Shown here: one piece after another, positions 3-24,017 of the stretch
Layout: every line of letters starts with the position of its first letter
How positions within the stretch are numbered: the first letter of the stretch is position 1
IMG/VR virus record: IMGVR_UViG_3300007871_000054
Coordinates: 1-24,017 of that record
Origin: a virus
Strand: one strand, 5' to 3'
DNA length: 24,017 nt
The notes under the pieces: generated by a model
Databases searched by the model: none
What the model saw: the letters and a program-made list of their open reading frames with translations, nothing else
Told to the model about the DNA's origin: nothing
Program-made: the position numbers and the translations under genes

Positions 3-3000
3 GTATACTCAATCGGGCAAAGAGAGTGGCAGGAGTGGGTAGCCAAGCGTCCTGAGTTAGTTCCTAGAACCGAGTGGGCTGAGGGTGTGGTCAAGCATCC
101 TGAGCTGGCTGGCGACCCTATGTATTGGGCTTACGAGTTTGCCTCAACCGCTCCTTTTATGATGGCGATAATGGGAACTACCGTAACCGTTGCTCTGGCT
201 ACTGGCAATCCAGCTTTGGGCATCGCTGCTGGTATGGCGATGGCTACGCCTCCGCAGGCTCAGGAAGCCTACGATGCACTTATAGCTCACGGAGCTACTG
301 AGGAGCAGGCTGGTCTGATGGCTCTCCCTATAGGCGTGCTAGTATCGGCTATTGAAGTAGCAGGGGACTTGCCTTACCTCAAGCAAGTGTTCCCTAGTAT
401 ATTTAAGATATTCTCTAAAGAGGTAACTGAGCAGATAGCCCAGAGGACTTTGCTCAGCCTGACCAAGAAAGGACTCATTACATTCGGCACGATTGAGATA
501 ACTGAGGCACTTGAGGAAGTAGCTCAACAGGCAGTTATGAACGCTGCTATCAGGGTCGTTGACGAGAACCAGAGCTACTTTGAGGGGTTAGGTGATGTGT
601 TTGCGAGAACTTTAATTGCCACCGCTCCTGTCGCCGTGTTCGGAGCTGTTTACGCTTCATTGCATCGGGTCAGCCCATCGGATATTGTGGGCAAGACCCC
701 CGACCAGTTGAAAGCTCTGGGATATGAGCAAGACCCTGAAACTGGCAACTGGTATGAGCCTGCTAAACTGCCATCTGATGTGGAGCAGAGAGCTAGGATA
801 GTTAAGGGTGTTATCCCCACGACACCAGCCGAAGCAGCTAGGATGGCTGCGGAGTTGGAGGCTGAACTTACTCCTCCTCCAAAGGCAAGGATACAGCCAC
901 CGAGAGTTCCGAAGAAACCAGCTCCGTCTGTGGTCTCACCTGCTGTTCCAGTAGCTCCTGCACCGCCAGCAAGAACGGCAGCAGGTAGGGTAGCCCAGAG
1001 GATTGAGATAGAGCCTAGCGATGTAGGTATAGCCGACAAGATTAAGAGGGGCTGGCATACCTTTCAGGTTAAGATGGTGGACGACCTCTACGCAATCAAG
1101 ATGTTTACTAAGGAAGCGGTTAAAGGTGGGATTGACCTACAAATAGAGCAAGACCCATACATAGCAGCTAGAATGATAAGGGGTATTATCGGCAAGGCGA
1201 ATGTCTTTATTGAGTATGGCACTCTGGGGAAGGTAACTTATAAAACTGTTAAAGGCAAGGCAGTCCCTAATTATACTGGCGAGTCTCTTGAGAGCATCCT
1301 CCACGTTGTCAAAGAGCCTAAGAAGTGGAGAGATTTCAGCACCTACCTTGTAGCTCGCAGGGCAGTAGAATTACACGGCAGGGAGATAGAAACTGGTATA
1401 ACATTGGAGGATGCTAGGGATACGGTAGCACAACTGTCTGGCGAAAATACATATTTCCCTGAGCTGGCAGATAGGCTCTATAAGTATCAGGATAACTTAC
1501 TCTCTTACGCTAGTGAAATGGGTCTGCTAAGCCCTGAGCTACTTGAAAAATTGAGGCAGTTCGGTGCTTATGTCCCATTCTACCGAGTCTATAATGAGCT
1601 GGCAGCTAAGGGCTTTATGGGTAAGAAGATGGCTAACATCGCTCAACCTATCAAGAGGATAAAAGGCTCAGAGCGTGAGATAGTCAATCCTCTTGAGAGT
1701 ATAGTCAAGAACACCTATGTATTGGTGAGTGCTGCCGAGAGAAACCAAGTTGGGATAATGATGGCAAATCTGGTAGACCAGAACCCAGAGCTTGCCGATA
1801 GGTTTGAGAGGGTTAAAACACCTATAGCCAAAGTAGCTAGAGTATCCGCAAAGGAGGTAGGTGTTGAGATTGAGGGGCTAACAGATGCGGAGAATGAGCA
1901 AGTCGTGGACATCTTCCGTCCATCGTTCTTTGTTCGTGGTGATGAGGTTACAGTTCTAATTGATGGTAGAAAGAGACATTTTAGGGTAGACCCAGACTTG
2001 CGTGATGCCCTGCTTAATCTGGATAGAGAGTCAATGGGTCTCATTGGCAAGTTCCTTTCCTATCCTGCTAAATGGCTGCGAGCTGGTGCTACTCTGAGTC
2101 CTGACTTTATGGTTCGCAATCCTGCCAGAGACCAACTAACTGCCTTTGTTTACTCTCTGTATAATTTCCTGCCTGCCGTAGATTTTATGAGAGGCGTGGC
2201 AAGTATTATACGGAGGGATGCTGATTACCAGATGTATCGTGCTTCTGGTGCTGAGCGTTCTATGTTGGTCTCAATGGACAGGCAATATCTTACCAAGTCC
2301 TTTAAGGAGGTCGTGGAGGGTCATAAGTTTACATCATATATCAAGCATCCTTTGGAGTTCTTTCAGATACTAAGCGAGCTAGGAGAGAAGGCTACTAGGC
2401 TTGGTGAGTTCAAGGCTGGCATAAGGCGTGGTGCTGTTCCCCTTGAAGCTGGCTACTCTGCTAGGAATGTGAGTTTGGACTTCGCACAAGCAGGGACTAC
2501 AGCTCACTCTATAAATAAATTGGCAGCCTTCTTTAATGCGAACCTGCGTGGTTGGTATCATATAATAAGCTCGTTCAAAGAGCAGCCAGTTAGAACATCA
2601 ATGAAGATATTTGTCGGCATAACTTTGCCGTCAATCTTGCTTTATTATGCTAACAGAGACGACCCACGCTGGAAAGAGATACCTCAATGGCAAAAGGATT
2701 TATTCTGGATTATCTTTGTTAAACCTCCGCCTGATAATTGGGATGAAATGACCGCAAAGGAAAAAGCCGAATGGATAAATGACCCTAACCTATTCAAGAC
2801 TGGTATTTACCGCATACCAAAACCTTTTGAGCTAGGCATTATATTTGGCTCTATCCCTGAAAGGTTTTTGGAATACTCAGATACAAAAGACCCTGACATT
2901 ATGAGAGACACCTTACTTGAGATAGTTGAGCAAGGTGCTCCTAATCCAGTGCCAACGGCTCTCATCCCTGTTTGGGAGTGGATAACTAATTACAGCTTCT

Positions 3001-5885
3001 TTATGAAAAGAAAAATCGTGCCTGCGAGTAGGGAGACAATGCCTCCTGAGCTTCAATATACTGGCTGGACTTCGCCGTTTTCCAAGAAGATAGGCGAATG
3101 GCTGAACATATCGCCAGCCAAGTTTGAGAATGTGGTAAGAGGCTGGACAGGTGGCTTAGGTGCTTATACTCTGGACATACTGAGTGCTATCTTGAAAGGC
3201 ACAGGCATCAGCCCAGACATACCAGAGCCATCGCCAACGCTGGCTGACATACCAGTATTAAAGGCTTTCGTAGTCCGCAATCCGTATGGCTCAGCAGGCG
3301 AGACGGTCAACCGCTTCTACGAGCTGTTAGAGGAATACCAAGAAGGCGAGAACTACCTCAAGGAAATGCTGTCGCTGGATGAGCAGGAGAAGTTTGAGAC
3401 CTACAAGGCAGCTCATCCAGAGCTATTGTTCTATTTTGACTTTGAGGGGGATACGTCTTACTCTGCCTCTGCACGGTATCTGAGGAGGGTCGCAAGAGAT
3501 TTATCTGAATTACGCCAGATGCAGGATGAGGTATACAAGTCCAAGACTATGACCCCAGAGGAGAAGCGATTAAAAATTGACGAGATAGACCAGCTCAAGA
3601 CAGAGGTAGCTCAAAGGGCTATGGACTTATTCTTAGGTGAAATCCCGATAGTAATGGAGCACGAACTAAGTAATGCTGAGGGTAGGCTAGGCGAAATCAT
3701 TGAGGGCGTGCCTGTGTTGTCGCTGGATGAGCCTGATATTTACGATATGCGAGAACTCAACACAGCATATGCAGGGCTATTGGAGGGAATTACTGCTGCC
3801 GACTTGGAGGGCAAGGCTGGTATACCAGATACAGTGTTCAACTGGTATGACAAGGAAGCCAGCGAGACGCTAGTGGGTGCTTATCCCAACACTTCAATCT
3901 ACAGGATTAACGCTGACCCAGAGAAAGGCACTACCTTTGAGGGATACTACCAGCAATGGCAAGAGCGTCAAAGGATAACCGACCCAGAGGAGTTAGCTGC
4001 ACACATCAAGCTGTATCCTAAAGCGTATCTGGGTAACTTAACGAAGCGACAGCTAGACCTTATCCGCAGGTATCACCGTGCCAGTGAAGATGAACAGGAG
4101 CGGATGCTCAAGGAGATACCAGAGCTTAGAGTCAATCCTAAACTTGATTGGCTGGTAGCCCACCCAGAGGATAACGCCAGATTAGCTCTCTGGGGGCAAG
4201 CCCCGATACTCACGATTGAAGCGTATAACGAGTTCAACAGGCTGGTCGCCGACCTTGATATACCCGATGATGCCGTTCCGTCCCTCACCTTACCTCCTGA
4301 GAAGTCAATAGAGACGCACTTCCTCTATGAGCAACTGGTAGCAGAGGGCAGGTCTAGCAGTTGGGAGGCTCAGCTTCTCAAGGCTAATGACCCAGACTAT
4401 TGTGAGTGGCGTGGCATTGAAGTCCCAGATGTGCCCACACCATCGCTTGAGCTGAAAACTACGCATAGGAAGCTCTACGATGCTTGGGATTTGGCTAAGG
4501 ATATTGAGGATTTGGAGCTGAGAGAGGCTGCTATAGAAAAGATAATGCTGACCGATGTCGGCGGTGGTCTACAGTTCAGGGACATTCTGAGGCAGGTGGA
4601 GGCGATTGAGGTCGGCACTAACGAAGTCCCTACTCCTGACAAGATAATCAACGCTTGGATTGACAGGGGCAAGGTGATAGATGAGTTCACCGCAGGCAGC
4701 TCCGAAGCTAAGATGTGGCTGGTAGATAATCTGGACGCTTACCGTTGGGCTTTGGAGAACGGAAAACTTACCGATGATGGAGGTCTGCCTGATAACGATG
4801 TCTATATCCTTGAGAATGGCAGGAGTGGGGTCAGGTGGAATATACCTGTCCTGAGCATCAACAGGACTTGGCGTGAGCAGGACACTTTTTATAACGTAGG
4901 TATACCTGAGAAATACGCTCACATCAGCAATGATGAGGAGAGGCTTCTGGGTATCAAGCGAGAGCGTGCTGCTTATCTTGAGGAGAATGAGGAATACAGG
5001 CTTGATAGGTGGAGGCGTGATGCCTACGGTGGCGTAGGAGCTGAGCCTGATTTCCTGCGGTTCACTCCCGAACAGGTAGAATTGTATGTCCAGTATTATG
5101 AACTACCGTCAGAGGGATACAGGCGAGAGAGATTTCTGCTTAACCATCCTGAGTTCGCTGAGGCTATGAATATCATTGAGGGCGTGGATACCCCGAAAGC
5201 TGAGGGCGTTCCTGTCGTCCAGTATGATGAGATTACCGAGCAGTATCAAGACCTGTTTGACATCTGGGATGCTTATGGTGATGAAAACGACACTGAATAC
5301 ATAGCCGACACGGAGGCTAGGGCGGAGCAAAGGTCAAAACTATTTTTGGGCACTTTAGGCAAGGAGTTCAAAGAGGCTCGCTTCCGCAGGAGTGCCTACA
5401 AATCCCTGATAGGGCACGAAGAACAAGTAGATAACTTCGTTGGTTACTACCTGATAATAGATGCTGGCAAACCAGACTATCAAGATGAGTGGTATGATGA
5501 TGATTGGTTCTTAATGGAGCATCCTCAGTTCCACGATACTATGCTCGCTCTGGGTATCTTTAAGAAACGCAGAAACTTTGAGAAAGTGCCGTCAAGAGAA
5601 GTATGGCAGCTCTACCTGATATATCAGGAAACTCCGAAGGGTGAGCCTAGATATGAAATGAGGGTTAAGTATCCTGAGCTGGACGCTTGGCTGCTCATAA
5701 CAGGCAAGGTATCTAAGGGTGTTGAGCAGCGAGAAATGGATGCAGGTATGTCCGATGCGGAGAGGGCTGCCAGAGCTGCTGCTCAGGAGGCTGCGGAACG
5801 TAGAGCTAAGTGGGCTGGATACGAGGAGCAGTCCGCAGAGCTGGACGAAATCTTACGGTTATGGAGGGAGCGTATGTTAAGATAG
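3..5885 (+). CDS. Large polyvalent virion protein with LPD38-like region, 5'-truncated
   Basis: The frame is open from the first bases of the window, so the GTG at 87 is internal and the N-terminus is missing; 1932 residues follow it. Counting from 87: hydrophobic Gly/Ala-rich helices at about 15-205, a Pro-rich linker at about 260-305, then a helical region. At about 655-960 the protein looks like the large polyvalent protein-associated domain LPD38: 'SPDFMVRNPARDQLTAF' near 671, 'TLPSILLYYANRDDPRW' near 845, 'RIPKPFELGIIFGSIPER' near 910. The acidic helical C-terminal half repeats short elements of the type [H/Y/N]P[E/Q/K][F/L], for example HPELL, HPEFAEA, HPQFHDT and YPELDAW. Such giant proteins are known from phages, usually near portal and capsid genes, and are thought to be packaged and ejected with DNA; that role is inferred here. 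No protease or polymerase motif was recognised in this part. It precedes the scaffold-like and capsid genes. Confidence 0.8.
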   Translation, partial: VYSIGQREWQEWVAKRPELVPRTEWAEGVVKHPELAGDPMYWAYEFASTAPFMMAIMGTTVTVALATGNPALGIAAGMAMATPPQAQEAYDALIAHGATEEQAGLMALPIGVLVSAIEVAGDLPYLKQVFPSIFKIFSKEVTEQIAQRTLLSLTKKGLITFGTIEITEALEEVAQQAVMNAAIRVVDENQSYFEGLGDVFARTLIATAPVAVFGAVYASLHRVSPSDIVGKTPDQLKALGYEQDPETGNWYEPAKLPSDVEQRARIVKGVIPTTPAEAARMAAELEAELTPPPKARIQPPRVPKKPAPSVVSPAVPVAPAPPARTAAGRVAQRIEIEPSDVGIADKIKRGWHTFQVKMVDDLYAIKMFTKEAVKGGIDLQIEQDPYIAARMIRGIIGKANVFIEYGTLGKVTYKTVKGKAVPNYTGESLESILHVVKEPKKWRDFSTYLVARRAVELHGREIETGITLEDARDTVAQLSGENTYFPELADRLYKYQDNLLSYASEMGLLSPELLEKLRQFGAYVPFYRVYNELAAKGFMGKKMANIAQPIKRIKGSEREIVNPLESIVKNTYVLVSAAERNQVGIMMANLVDQNPELADRFERVKTPIAKVARVSAKEVGVEIEGLTDAENEQVVDIFRPSFFVRGDEVTVLIDGRKRHFRVDPDLRDALLNLDRESMGLIGKFLSYPAKWLRAGATLSPDFMVRNPARDQLTAFVYSLYNFLPAVDFMRGVASIIRRDADYQMYRASGAERSMLVSMDRQYLTKSFKEVVEGHKFTSYIKHPLEFFQILSELGEKATRLGEFKAGIRRGAVPLEAGYSARNVSLDFAQAGTTAHSINKLAAFFNANLRGWYHIISSFKEQPVRTSMKIFVGITLPSILLYYANRDDPRWKEIPQWQKDLFWIIFVKPPPDNWDEMTAKEKAEWINDPNLFKTGIYRIPKPFELGIIFGSIPERFLEYSDTKDPDIMRDTLLEIVEQGAPNPVPTALIPVWEWITNYSFFMKRKIVPASRETMPPELQYTGWTSPFSKKIGEWLNISPAKFENVVRGWTGGLGAYTLDILSAILKGTGISPDIPEPSPTLADIPVLKAFVVRNPYGSAGETVNRFYELLEEYQEGENYLKEMLSLDEQEKFETYKAAHPELLFYFDFEGDTSYSASARYLRRVARDLSELRQMQDEVYKSKTMTPEEKRLKIDEIDQLKTEVAQRAMDLFLGEIPIVMEHELSNAEGRLGEIIEGVPVLSLDEPDIYDMRELNTAYAGLLEGITAADLEGKAGIPDTVFNWYDKEASETLVGAYPNTSIYRINADPEKGTTFEGYYQQWQERQRITDPEELAAHIKLYPKAYLGNLTKRQLDLIRRYHRASEDEQERMLKEIPELRVNPKLDWLVAHPEDNARLALWGQAPILTIEAYNEFNRLVADLDIPDDAVPSLTLPPEKSIETHFLYEQLVAEGRSSSWEAQLLKANDPDYCEWRGIEVPDVPTPSLELKTTHRKLYDAWDLAKDIEDLELREAAIEKIMLTDVGGGLQFRDILRQVEAIEVGTNEVPTPDKIINAWIDRGKVIDEFTAGSSEAKMWLVDNLDAYRWALENGKLTDDGGLPDNDVYILENGRSGVRWNIPVLSINRTWREQDTFYNVGIPEKYAHISNDEERLLGIKRERAAYLEENEEYRLDRWRRDAYGGVGAEPDFLRFTPEQVELYVQYYELPSEGYRRERFLLNHPEFAEAMNIIEGVDTPKAEGVPVVQYDEITEQYQDLFDIWDAYGDENDTEYIADTEARAEQRSKLFLGTLGKEFKEARFRRSAYKSLIGHEEQVDNFVGYYLIIDAGKPDYQDEWYDDDWFLMEHPQFHDTMLALGIFKKRRNFEKVPSREVWQLYLIYQETPKGEPRYEMRVKYPELDAWLLITGKVSKGVEQREMDAGMSDAERAARAAAQEAAERRAKWAGYEEQSAELDEILRLWRERMLR

Positions 5886-6717: not shown

Positions 6718-7857
6718 GTGAATACGTTGATTACCCCAACGGCTGTAGCCAAGATGAGCTTAATCGCTCTCTTGAACAACTGGGTATTTGGCGGTCTCGT
6801 TTACAAGGATTACTCTAAGGAGTTTAAGAAAGTCGGCGAGTCCGTTAAGGTTCGTAAGCCAATATCAGTAGACGCTGTTGAGTTTGATGGAGACCTCACA
6901 GGGCAGTTCCAGAACGTAACTGAGGAATACGTTGAAGTTCCTATGGACACTATTCTCACCGTGCCTTTACAGGTCGGTGCGAAGCAGTTGACCCAAGAAG
7001 TTGAAAGTTTCTATGGTCAGTTCGTTGAGCCTGCTGTGCAGGCGATTGCCGATGCGGTTGATGTTAAACTGGCTCGGCTCTATAAGGATATACCCTACTA
7101 CTATGACATCACGGAAACCAACGTTTTAACCATTGTCCAAAGTTTGCTAGGTGGTCGTCAGGTTTTGGGAGACAACAAAGCTCCGCAGAGGGGCAGGGTA
7201 GCGGTGATGAGTCCGCTTACCACAGCTTTGTTACTCTCCACAGACCCCTTCCGAGACCTAGACAAGACAGGGCAGACGACTGCTCTCCGTGAAGCCTCTC
7301 TGGGGCGTATCTTTGGCTTTGACTTCTTTGAGAACCAGAATATCCAGACCCACGCCATAGGCTCTGCCACTGTAGCAGGTGCGATTGATAGCCCTGCTGC
7401 TGCGGACTATCCTGTTGGCACAGCCACCATCCACATTGACGGCTTAGGAGCTACGGATACTTATGCGAAAGGCAGTATTCTCGTCATAACAGGCGTAGCA
7501 GGACATTATGTTCTTACTGCTGACACGACCTGTTCTGGTGGCGAGGCTGACTTCCCCATTTATCCTGCCCTAGAAGCTGTCGCTTCTGATGGTGATGTGG
7601 TTACGTTCCACGCTGCTGCCACGACAAGCAAGGAAAACCTGTTATTCCACAAGAATTGCTTTGCGATGGTGTCAGCACCGTTAGAACCGCCTCTGGGTGG
7701 AGCTAAGGGAGCTACTGTAGCTTATAACGGTATCTCAATGAACGTGGTCTATGACTACGTTACACCGCAGTTCAAGAACTTAATGACCATTTCCTTGCTC
7801 TGTGGCTTCAAGACCCTGACACCCGAACTCGGCTGTCGTCTGTATGACGCTAGTTAA
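6718..7857 (+). CDS. Major capsid protein, P22 coat protein-like (HK97 fold)
   Basis: 379 residues starting at GTG, with GGAGGG eleven bases upstream. The N-terminus 'TPTAVAKMSLIALLNNW', the following 'YKDYSKEFKKVGESVKVRKP' and the segment ending 'EEYVEVPMDTILTVPLQV' match the layout of the P22 coat protein family (gp5-like), whose members tile the icosahedral head. Residues about 224-300 form a beta-rich insert ('GSILVITGVAGHYVLTAD' and 'DGDVVTFHAAATT'), in the position of the extra domain found in this family. The conserved C-terminal 'YNGISMNVVYDYV' follows. Length fits the family (P22 coat is 430 residues; shorter relatives are common). It sits between the scaffold-like and fibre-like genes. 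Confidence 0.85.
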   Translation: MNTLITPTAVAKMSLIALLNNWVFGGLVYKDYSKEFKKVGESVKVRKPISVDAVEFDGDLTGQFQNVTEEYVEVPMDTILTVPLQVGAKQLTQEVESFYGQFVEPAVQAIADAVDVKLARLYKDIPYYYDITETNVLTIVQSLLGGRQVLGDNKAPQRGRVAVMSPLTTALLLSTDPFRDLDKTGQTTALREASLGRIFGFDFFENQNIQTHAIGSATVAGAIDSPAAADYPVGTATIHIDGLGATDTYAKGSILVITGVAGHYVLTADTTCSGGEADFPIYPALEAVASDGDVVTFHAAATTSKENLLFHKNCFAMVSAPLEPPLGGAKGATVAYNGISMNVVYDYVTPQFKNLMTISLLCGFKTLTPELGCRLYDAS

Positions 7858-17894: not shown

Positions 17895-18305
17895 ATGGCA
17901 AATAAAAGTAGTTTCGTAACACCCCTAGTCGTGGAGGAGTATGGTGGCAGGTTGTGGAGATTGCACTTCCAGTTTACCTATGAGCGGTGGTGCAAGGGGA
18001 GTAGAGACAGGATAACCGTCCCTGCTGGTTTCGTCTTTGATTTCGCCAGCATCCCCAAGTTCTTACTTCCGCTCCTACCGTTCTGGGCTAAGTATAATAA
18101 AGCCTGTGTCCTCCACGATTATCTATACCGCCCTGATTGTAGATATTGGGCAGGTAAGTTGAGCCGTAAGATGGCTGACTATGTATTTCACGGAGCTATG
18201 CTTGTCGCTTTCAGGCATCATCGCTCTGGCAGGGTGGTAGCCTATCTTGAGTGGCTGGCAGTCAGGTTATTCGGCTGGTTAGCCTATAAGAAAAGGAGTG
18301 AATGA
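17895..18305 (+). CDS. DUF1353 family protein
   Basis: AGGAG precedes the ATG by seven bases. 136 residues with the DUF1353 signature: 'VPAGFVFDFASIPKFLLP' (42-59) and 'KACVLHDYLYRP' (69-80), followed by an aromatic, basic C-terminus with a hydrophobic helix ('YLEWLAVRLFGWLAYKKR'). DUF1353 proteins are common in tailed phages and often sit by holin and lysis genes; their biochemical role was not known to me. The Asp, Ser and His-Asp of the motifs could be catalytic. Here it directly precedes a holin-like gene (overlap TGATG) where an endolysin would often be. Confidence 0.8.
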   Translation: MANKSSFVTPLVVEEYGGRLWRLHFQFTYERWCKGSRDRITVPAGFVFDFASIPKFLLPLLPFWAKYNKACVLHDYLYRPDCRYWAGKLSRKMADYVFHGAMLVAFRHHRSGRVVAYLEWLAVRLFGWLAYKKRSE

Positions 18306-18547
18306 TGATTGAGTTTCTACAATCGGCTGGTGCAATATGGGGGTTCGGGGCTGTCTTTGCTGTCCTGATGTTCTTTATCTTGATGAGGATAATGAAGTAT
18401 TATACCTCCCAGATGAGAGAGGACAGGAAGTATATGGAGGACAGGCTCTCTGGTATCCTTGCTGCCTATGACAACTCTACCAAAGAAAACACGCAAGTCC
18501 TCTCACAGTTGTTTCAATACCTAAAAGGCAAGAACGGTAATAAGTAG
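18305..18547 (+). CDS. Holin-like single-span membrane protein
   Basis: Two ATGs lie in tandem at 18302 and 18305; the second is chosen since GGAG at 18295-18298 gives it a six-base spacing and it overlaps the DUF1353 stop as TGATG. 80 residues from that start: a short periplasmic end ('MIEFLQSAGAIWGFG'), one membrane helix at about 14-30 ('FAVLMFFILMRIMKYY'), then a charged coiled-coil tail ('MREDRKYMEDRLSGIL') ending 'KGKNGNK'. This is the BhlA/UviB-like holin layout. It is the last gene of the late operon. Lysis role is inferred from size, topology and place. Confidence 0.65.
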   Translation: MIEFLQSAGAIWGFGAVFAVLMFFILMRIMKYYTSQMREDRKYMEDRLSGILAAYDNSTKENTQVLSQLFQYLKGKNGNK

Positions 18548-18611
18548 CCCTTACCAGACGCACTCAGCCGTAAATCTAAGGGGGTGTATGTTTTGGTTAA
18601 TAGTTTACTAT

Positions 18612-18800
18612 TCAGGAGGGTAGCTTCACCCCTTTCGGCAAGATAAGCCCACTCTTGGGTAGGGTCTGTGCCTTAGCCAGCTTATCAATATACCAATCAA
18701 AGGCAGCTAGTATTTCTGTATGCCGACCACAGACACCATACTTGGAGGTCGGCAGTATATTGTGGTCGCATCCACTAATGGGGCAGGGGTTTCGTTTCAT
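18612..18800 (-). CDS. Small Cys/His protein, likely zinc-binding, 62 aa
   Basis: Its ATG overlaps the stop of the methyltransferase gene (ATGA), so translation is probably coupled; no strong ribosome site of its own is seen. The first 30 residues hold C6, C11, H13, C24 and H27 ('CPISGCDHN', then 'CGRHTE'), a plausible zinc site. A helix ('ILAAFDWYIDKLAKA') and a Pro/Lys/Gly-rich tail follow. It is the last gene of the early operon and ends near the convergence point. Function unknown. Confidence 0.7.
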   Translation of the reverse strand: MKRNPCPISGCDHNILPTSKYGVCGRHTEILAAFDWYIDKLAKAQTLPKSGLILPKGVKLPS

Positions 18801-23708: not shown

Positions 23709-23752
23709 AAACCTTTCTCCCTTTATTTATTTTAACCCTCCCAAACAGGAAG

Positions 23753-23797
23753 CCTAAGAAGTCCCGAACTTAACAGGGAAACTTAACTTATCTTAGG
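23753..23797 (-). promoter_or_regulatory. Imperfect dyad in the early leader
   Basis: CCTAAGA (23753-23759) pairs with TCTTAGG (23791-23797); inside, AAGT/ACTT and CCC/GGG continue the helix with a two-base bulge. It also holds two direct AACTTAAC copies (23767, 23780). It could be an operator or a leader RNA hairpin for the 172-residue gene that starts 45 bases on. Confidence 0.35.
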
Positions 23798-23814
23798 ACA
23801 TTCTCTCGGCTCTC

Positions 23815-23902
23815 GCCTTTGAGATACTGCCTTGCTCCCTTGCTCCGTGCTGCCTTGACATTTCTAACCCTTACTACTTTGACTCTTGAACCTTACTGCC
23901 TT
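23815..23902 (-). repeat. Imperfect spaced repeats (iteron-like) in the early leader
   Basis: On the plus strand GCCTT or a near match occurs at 23815, 23829, 23852, 23876 (ACTTT) and 23898; the last four are preceded by (T)ACT or TGCT and spaced 23, 24 and 22 bases. An AT-rich patch (23903-23916) follows. The layout recalls iterons beside an unwinding element, but the copies are short and degenerate. Confidence 0.3.
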
Positions 23903-23908
23903 TAGATT

Positions 23909-23937
23909 TTAATATTCTGCTGATGTTCAGTCAGCAA
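23909..23937 (-). promoter_or_regulatory. Weak sigma70-type promoter candidate with dyad in spacer
   Basis: Minus strand: TTGCTG (23937-23932), 17-base spacer, TATTAA (23914-23909). Matches to consensus are three of six and four of six. The spacer region holds a dyad GCTGA/TCAGC (arms 23919-23923 and 23931-23935), as a repressor site could. It is the best spaced pair in the leader, but this is weak evidence. Confidence 0.25.
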
Positions 23938-23955
23938 AACAGCTTAACTTGCTGC

Positions 23956-24017
23956 CTGTCTCTTATACACATCTCCGAGCCCACGAGACCGTACTAGATC
24001 TCGTATGCCGTCTTCTG
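23956..24017 (+). other. Illumina Nextera adapter read-through (artefact)
   Basis: CTGTCTCTTATACACATCT (23956-23974) is the Tn5 mosaic end in its read-through form; CCGAGCCCACGAGAC (23975-23989) is the Nextera read-2 adapter; CGTACTAG (23990-23997) is an i7 index (the Nextera N702 read form); ATCTCGTATGCCGTCTTCTG (23998-24017) is the P7 end. The order is exact. These bases are not from the organism and should be trimmed. Confidence 0.99.

Follow-up and report, generated by a model that had tools for sequence, protein, structure and literature searches.

The window analysed here, a stretch of 24,017 bases, is the entire virus record IMGVR_UViG_3300007871_000054. Without its last 62 bases, the record is an ordinary, incomplete tailed-phage fragment, which carries a 1960-residue frame, a P22-type coat protein and tail proteins on the + strand, and an MT-A70 methyltransferase and DnaC-like and DnaD-like replication proteins on the - strand. 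The 1960-residue frame (3-5885) is open at the left edge, contains an LPD38 (large polyvalent protein) domain and displays a strong match to phrog_9854, a family of unknown function; it lies directly upstream of a small gene, which is followed by the P22-type coat protein gene. A change in the sign of the GC skew was observed at approximately 18500-18800, at the junction between the virion genes, which read rightward, and the leftward block of replication and methyltransferase genes. A search with phrog_2, which we take to be the terminase large subunit, gave no hit in the window and a single weak one in another genome (G001); no firm conclusion is drawn from this search. The rightmost gene is a 172-residue leftward frame, for which no match was found in PHROGs, and it is followed by the last phage bases and then by the elements listed in Table 1.

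Table 1. Features identified at the right end of the window.
Feature	Position	Strand	Basis
Final phage DNA, 247 bases, no evident gene	23709..23955		Six-frame reading
Tn5 mosaic end of the Nextera adapter, 19 bases	23956..23974	+	Exact match, only copy in the window
Read-2 side part of the Nextera adapter, 15 bases	23975..23989	+	Exact match to the published adapter
i7 index CGTACTAG, N702	23990..23997	+	Reverse complement of the N702 primer index (PMC4730607)
P7 end, first 20 of 24 bases, last four (CTTG) missing	23998..24017	+	Exact prefix of the published string

A 62-base adapter pattern, consisting of 54 specified and eight free index bases, matched the window once, at 23956-24017 on the + strand and with no mismatches; none of 100 dinucleotide-preserving shuffles of the window contained a match. 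When the mosaic end was searched for alone, allowing up to three mismatches, its position in Table 1 was the only one found in the window, and a single such match was present in one of the 100 shuffles. Neither at the left edge nor elsewhere in the window were other adapter pieces detected when both strands were searched for exact copies of the first 12 bases of seven oligos. A chance resemblance within phage DNA, in which all 54 specified bases would have had to agree exactly, is vanishingly improbable and is ruled out by the shuffles.

For comparison with the published sequences, an expected 66-base string was built by joining the sequences of the Nextera adapter and N702 primer, both taken from PMC4730607. 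The 62 bases of the tail are an exact prefix of this string (62/62 identical and in the same order, 62 of the 66 covered), lacking the final CTTG of the P7 end. The mosaic end directly adjoins the read-2 part, with an exact match throughout 23956-23989, and this 34-base string also appears in the read-cleaning settings of PMC6460022. The eight-base index belongs to the set of the kit and is named N702 in PMC5570097 as well as in PMC4730607. The first-pass annotation had described a mosaic end, read-2 adapter, eight-base index and P7 in that order, had placed the last real base at 23955, and had proposed a comparison with published Nextera sequences; the exact 62-base match, its start precisely at 23956 and the agreement with the PMC4730607 oligos bear it out on the elements, their order and the last real base. 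Its description of the adapter as complete is four bases too strong, because CTTG is absent: the P7 end is truncated where the contig stops and is otherwise unchanged. The adapter points outward and reaches the very last base of the record.

The 19-base element could also be read as a genuine transposon end of Tn5/IS50 inserted into the phage, as the ends of Tn5 and the mosaic end have related sequences (PMC3347997, in which the element bears this name). According to the same source, however, the mosaic end is a chimera that was optimised for work in vitro; it differs from the natural outside end, the end used for this comparison, at three of 19 positions (4, 17 and 18), and the element is therefore no wild outside end. 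Furthermore, it is followed by an exact read-2 adapter, index and P7 tail, and not by transposon sequence. A natural Tn5 end is ruled out by this laboratory chimera and the adapter, index and P7 letters after it, and we regard it as extremely implausible.

In the viral contig collection, at least 120 stretches from other IMG/VR records carry the same adapter pattern. Among the matches listed (124 in 120 loci), 120 lie no more than 60 bases from a contig end and point outward. Twelve different index values occur among them, seven of which we take to be members of the Illumina set; the other five, N701, N702, N703, N704 and N705, are named in published passages. The listed matches come from 24 IMG datasets, 20 of which display one index (11 of these with two or more matches, nine with one), while four display two. 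One index per dataset in 20 of 24 datasets is the behaviour of a library barcode; for the four two-index datasets, pooled libraries are our guess. Since one string trails so many different contigs and varies in nothing but its barcode, mostly by dataset, it is a library adapter. This recurrence with differing indexes also supports the earlier claim that untrimmed reads had been assembled. In 110 of the 124 listed matches at least four bases are present beyond the match, and in all 110 the first of these are CTTG, the rest of P7; most of these other contigs run on through CTTG, usually into a run of A. Such a run is expected where a read continues past the end of the library molecule.

The four listed matches situated away from a contig end were those in loci L045, L093, L100 and L118. 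Locus L100 starts 38 bases past the end of the neighbouring locus on the same contig, and its match may lie beside a scaffold gap. In L045 (6346-6407), L093 and L118 the adapter is located kilobases inside the contig, with unbroken sequence on either side; these may be chimeric joins, and the G+C content, which is similar on both sides, is not decisive.

Taken together, we conclude that positions 23956-24017 are an Illumina Nextera i7-side library adapter that entered the assembly, an ordinary artefact, and assign this reading a probability of approximately 0.995. The identity and order of the elements, the index, their location at the end of the contig and the recurrence on many other contigs are direct observations. 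The points that count against this reading are the four of 124 listed matches that are not near a contig end and the four of 24 datasets with two indexes.

In the Nextera method, Tn5 loaded with mosaic ends cuts the DNA and attaches the adapter at the cut, and an index PCR then adds the index and P7. Here, Tn5 carrying mosaic-end adapters would have cut the phage DNA directly after 23955, and PCR with the N702 primer would have added the index and the P7 end. The insert was presumably shorter than the read, in which case sequencing continues into the adapter, as described in the Trimmomatic paper (PMC4103590). The read would then have been incompletely trimmed, and the assembler probably extended the contig along it until support ended, four bases before the end of the adapter. 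As the start of the adapter is exact, 23955 is best interpreted as the position of a transposase cut, and not as a demonstrated genome end.

An additional scenario accepts that the adapter is artefactual, and supposes that the phage DNA naturally ends, or has a packaging boundary, immediately to the right of 23955. The last Tn5 cut before the physical end would then have become the contig end, and the artefact would by coincidence mark a true terminus region. The last 247 phage bases, in which no gene is evident, and the inward reading of the outermost gene are in line with it. Against it, the same artefact terminates many unrelated contigs, and two relatives of the DnaC-like gene extend well past the matching genes on that side. 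These two distant relatives of the DnaC-like protein were found in viral_contigs, with 59% and 57% identity. Relatives were sought with six short peptide patterns per protein, scans by which distant relatives are missed; they returned no relatives of the DnaC-like protein in genome_contigs and none of the 172-residue protein or the DnaD-like protein in viral_contigs, and because of this property of the scans the outermost gene was not placed in a relative. When the adapter-free window was compared by BLAST with all fetched loci except its own (L121), no near-identical sequence was seen in this set, from which very near genomes were possibly omitted; the only DNA matches were to distant relatives, namely L122/L129 (one contig) and L123, at 67-86% identity. 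Similarly, the last 37 phage bases had no exact match in viral_contigs, in a scan that may omit the window's own and very near genomes.

The L122 locus begins at base 18020 of its contig and has the same orientation as that contig; its DnaD-like match starts at locus position 5698, which places approximately 23.7 kb past the match, toward the side at which the window ends. The DnaD-like match of L123 begins near locus position 7600, with at least 7.6 kb beyond; the gene order of L123 differs, with the large tail gene on the side beyond the DnaD-like match. In these searches, the last gene and last bases of the window were shared by neither L122 nor L123. A continuation of the phage genome past 23955 is suggested by the gene neighbourhood and not by direct overlap. 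Relatives that extend further, together with the open left edge, indicate a fragmentary record, in which 23955 is no demonstrated terminus. A natural end shortly beyond this position is unsupported, and we consider it unlikely. The earlier statement that any terminus claim at the right end would be false is too strong; such claims are unsupported, not proven false.

The library-adapter artefact is of an already known type and is no real phage feature. Sequencing-adapter contamination concentrated at contig ends was described for MGnify genomes (PMC11536531), and as in those cases the adapter found here is located at a contig extremity and points outward. That paper counted the 12-base TruSeq adapter in MGnify assemblies, whereas the present one is a Nextera adapter in a virus record. 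The tail is uninformative with regard to the real end of the phage, and its importance is limited to data hygiene: 23956-24017 should be trimmed before gene calling, analysis of termini or attachment sites, and clustering. The artefact is nevertheless common in the viral contig collection, and in a few records it is internal. Of three adapter-coded peptides none matched a PHROGs family, and for one of them no mention was found in a literature search.

GenBank phage records of many hosts also carry the adapter. Of the annotated phage collection, 35 records share sequence with the window; every one of the 20 listed does so at the adapter only. In one GenBank phage record, LR597652.1 (Escherichia phage Lambda_ev110, L128 1-83, record positions 46688-46770), the adapter has been annotated as a protein: the hypothetical protein VUF54222.1 is mostly translated Nextera adapter, the stretch in question being VSYTHLRAHETVLDLVCRLLLEKKAP. 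Two Tequatrovirus records labelled 'complete genome', MK327946.1 (L126 1501-1562) and MK327937.1 (L127 1501-1562), contain an internal adapter match. In MK327946.1 this match (93.7%) is situated between two genes, each annotated as baseplate hub subunit and tail lysozyme, an arrangement suggestive of a single gene interrupted by an assembly join.
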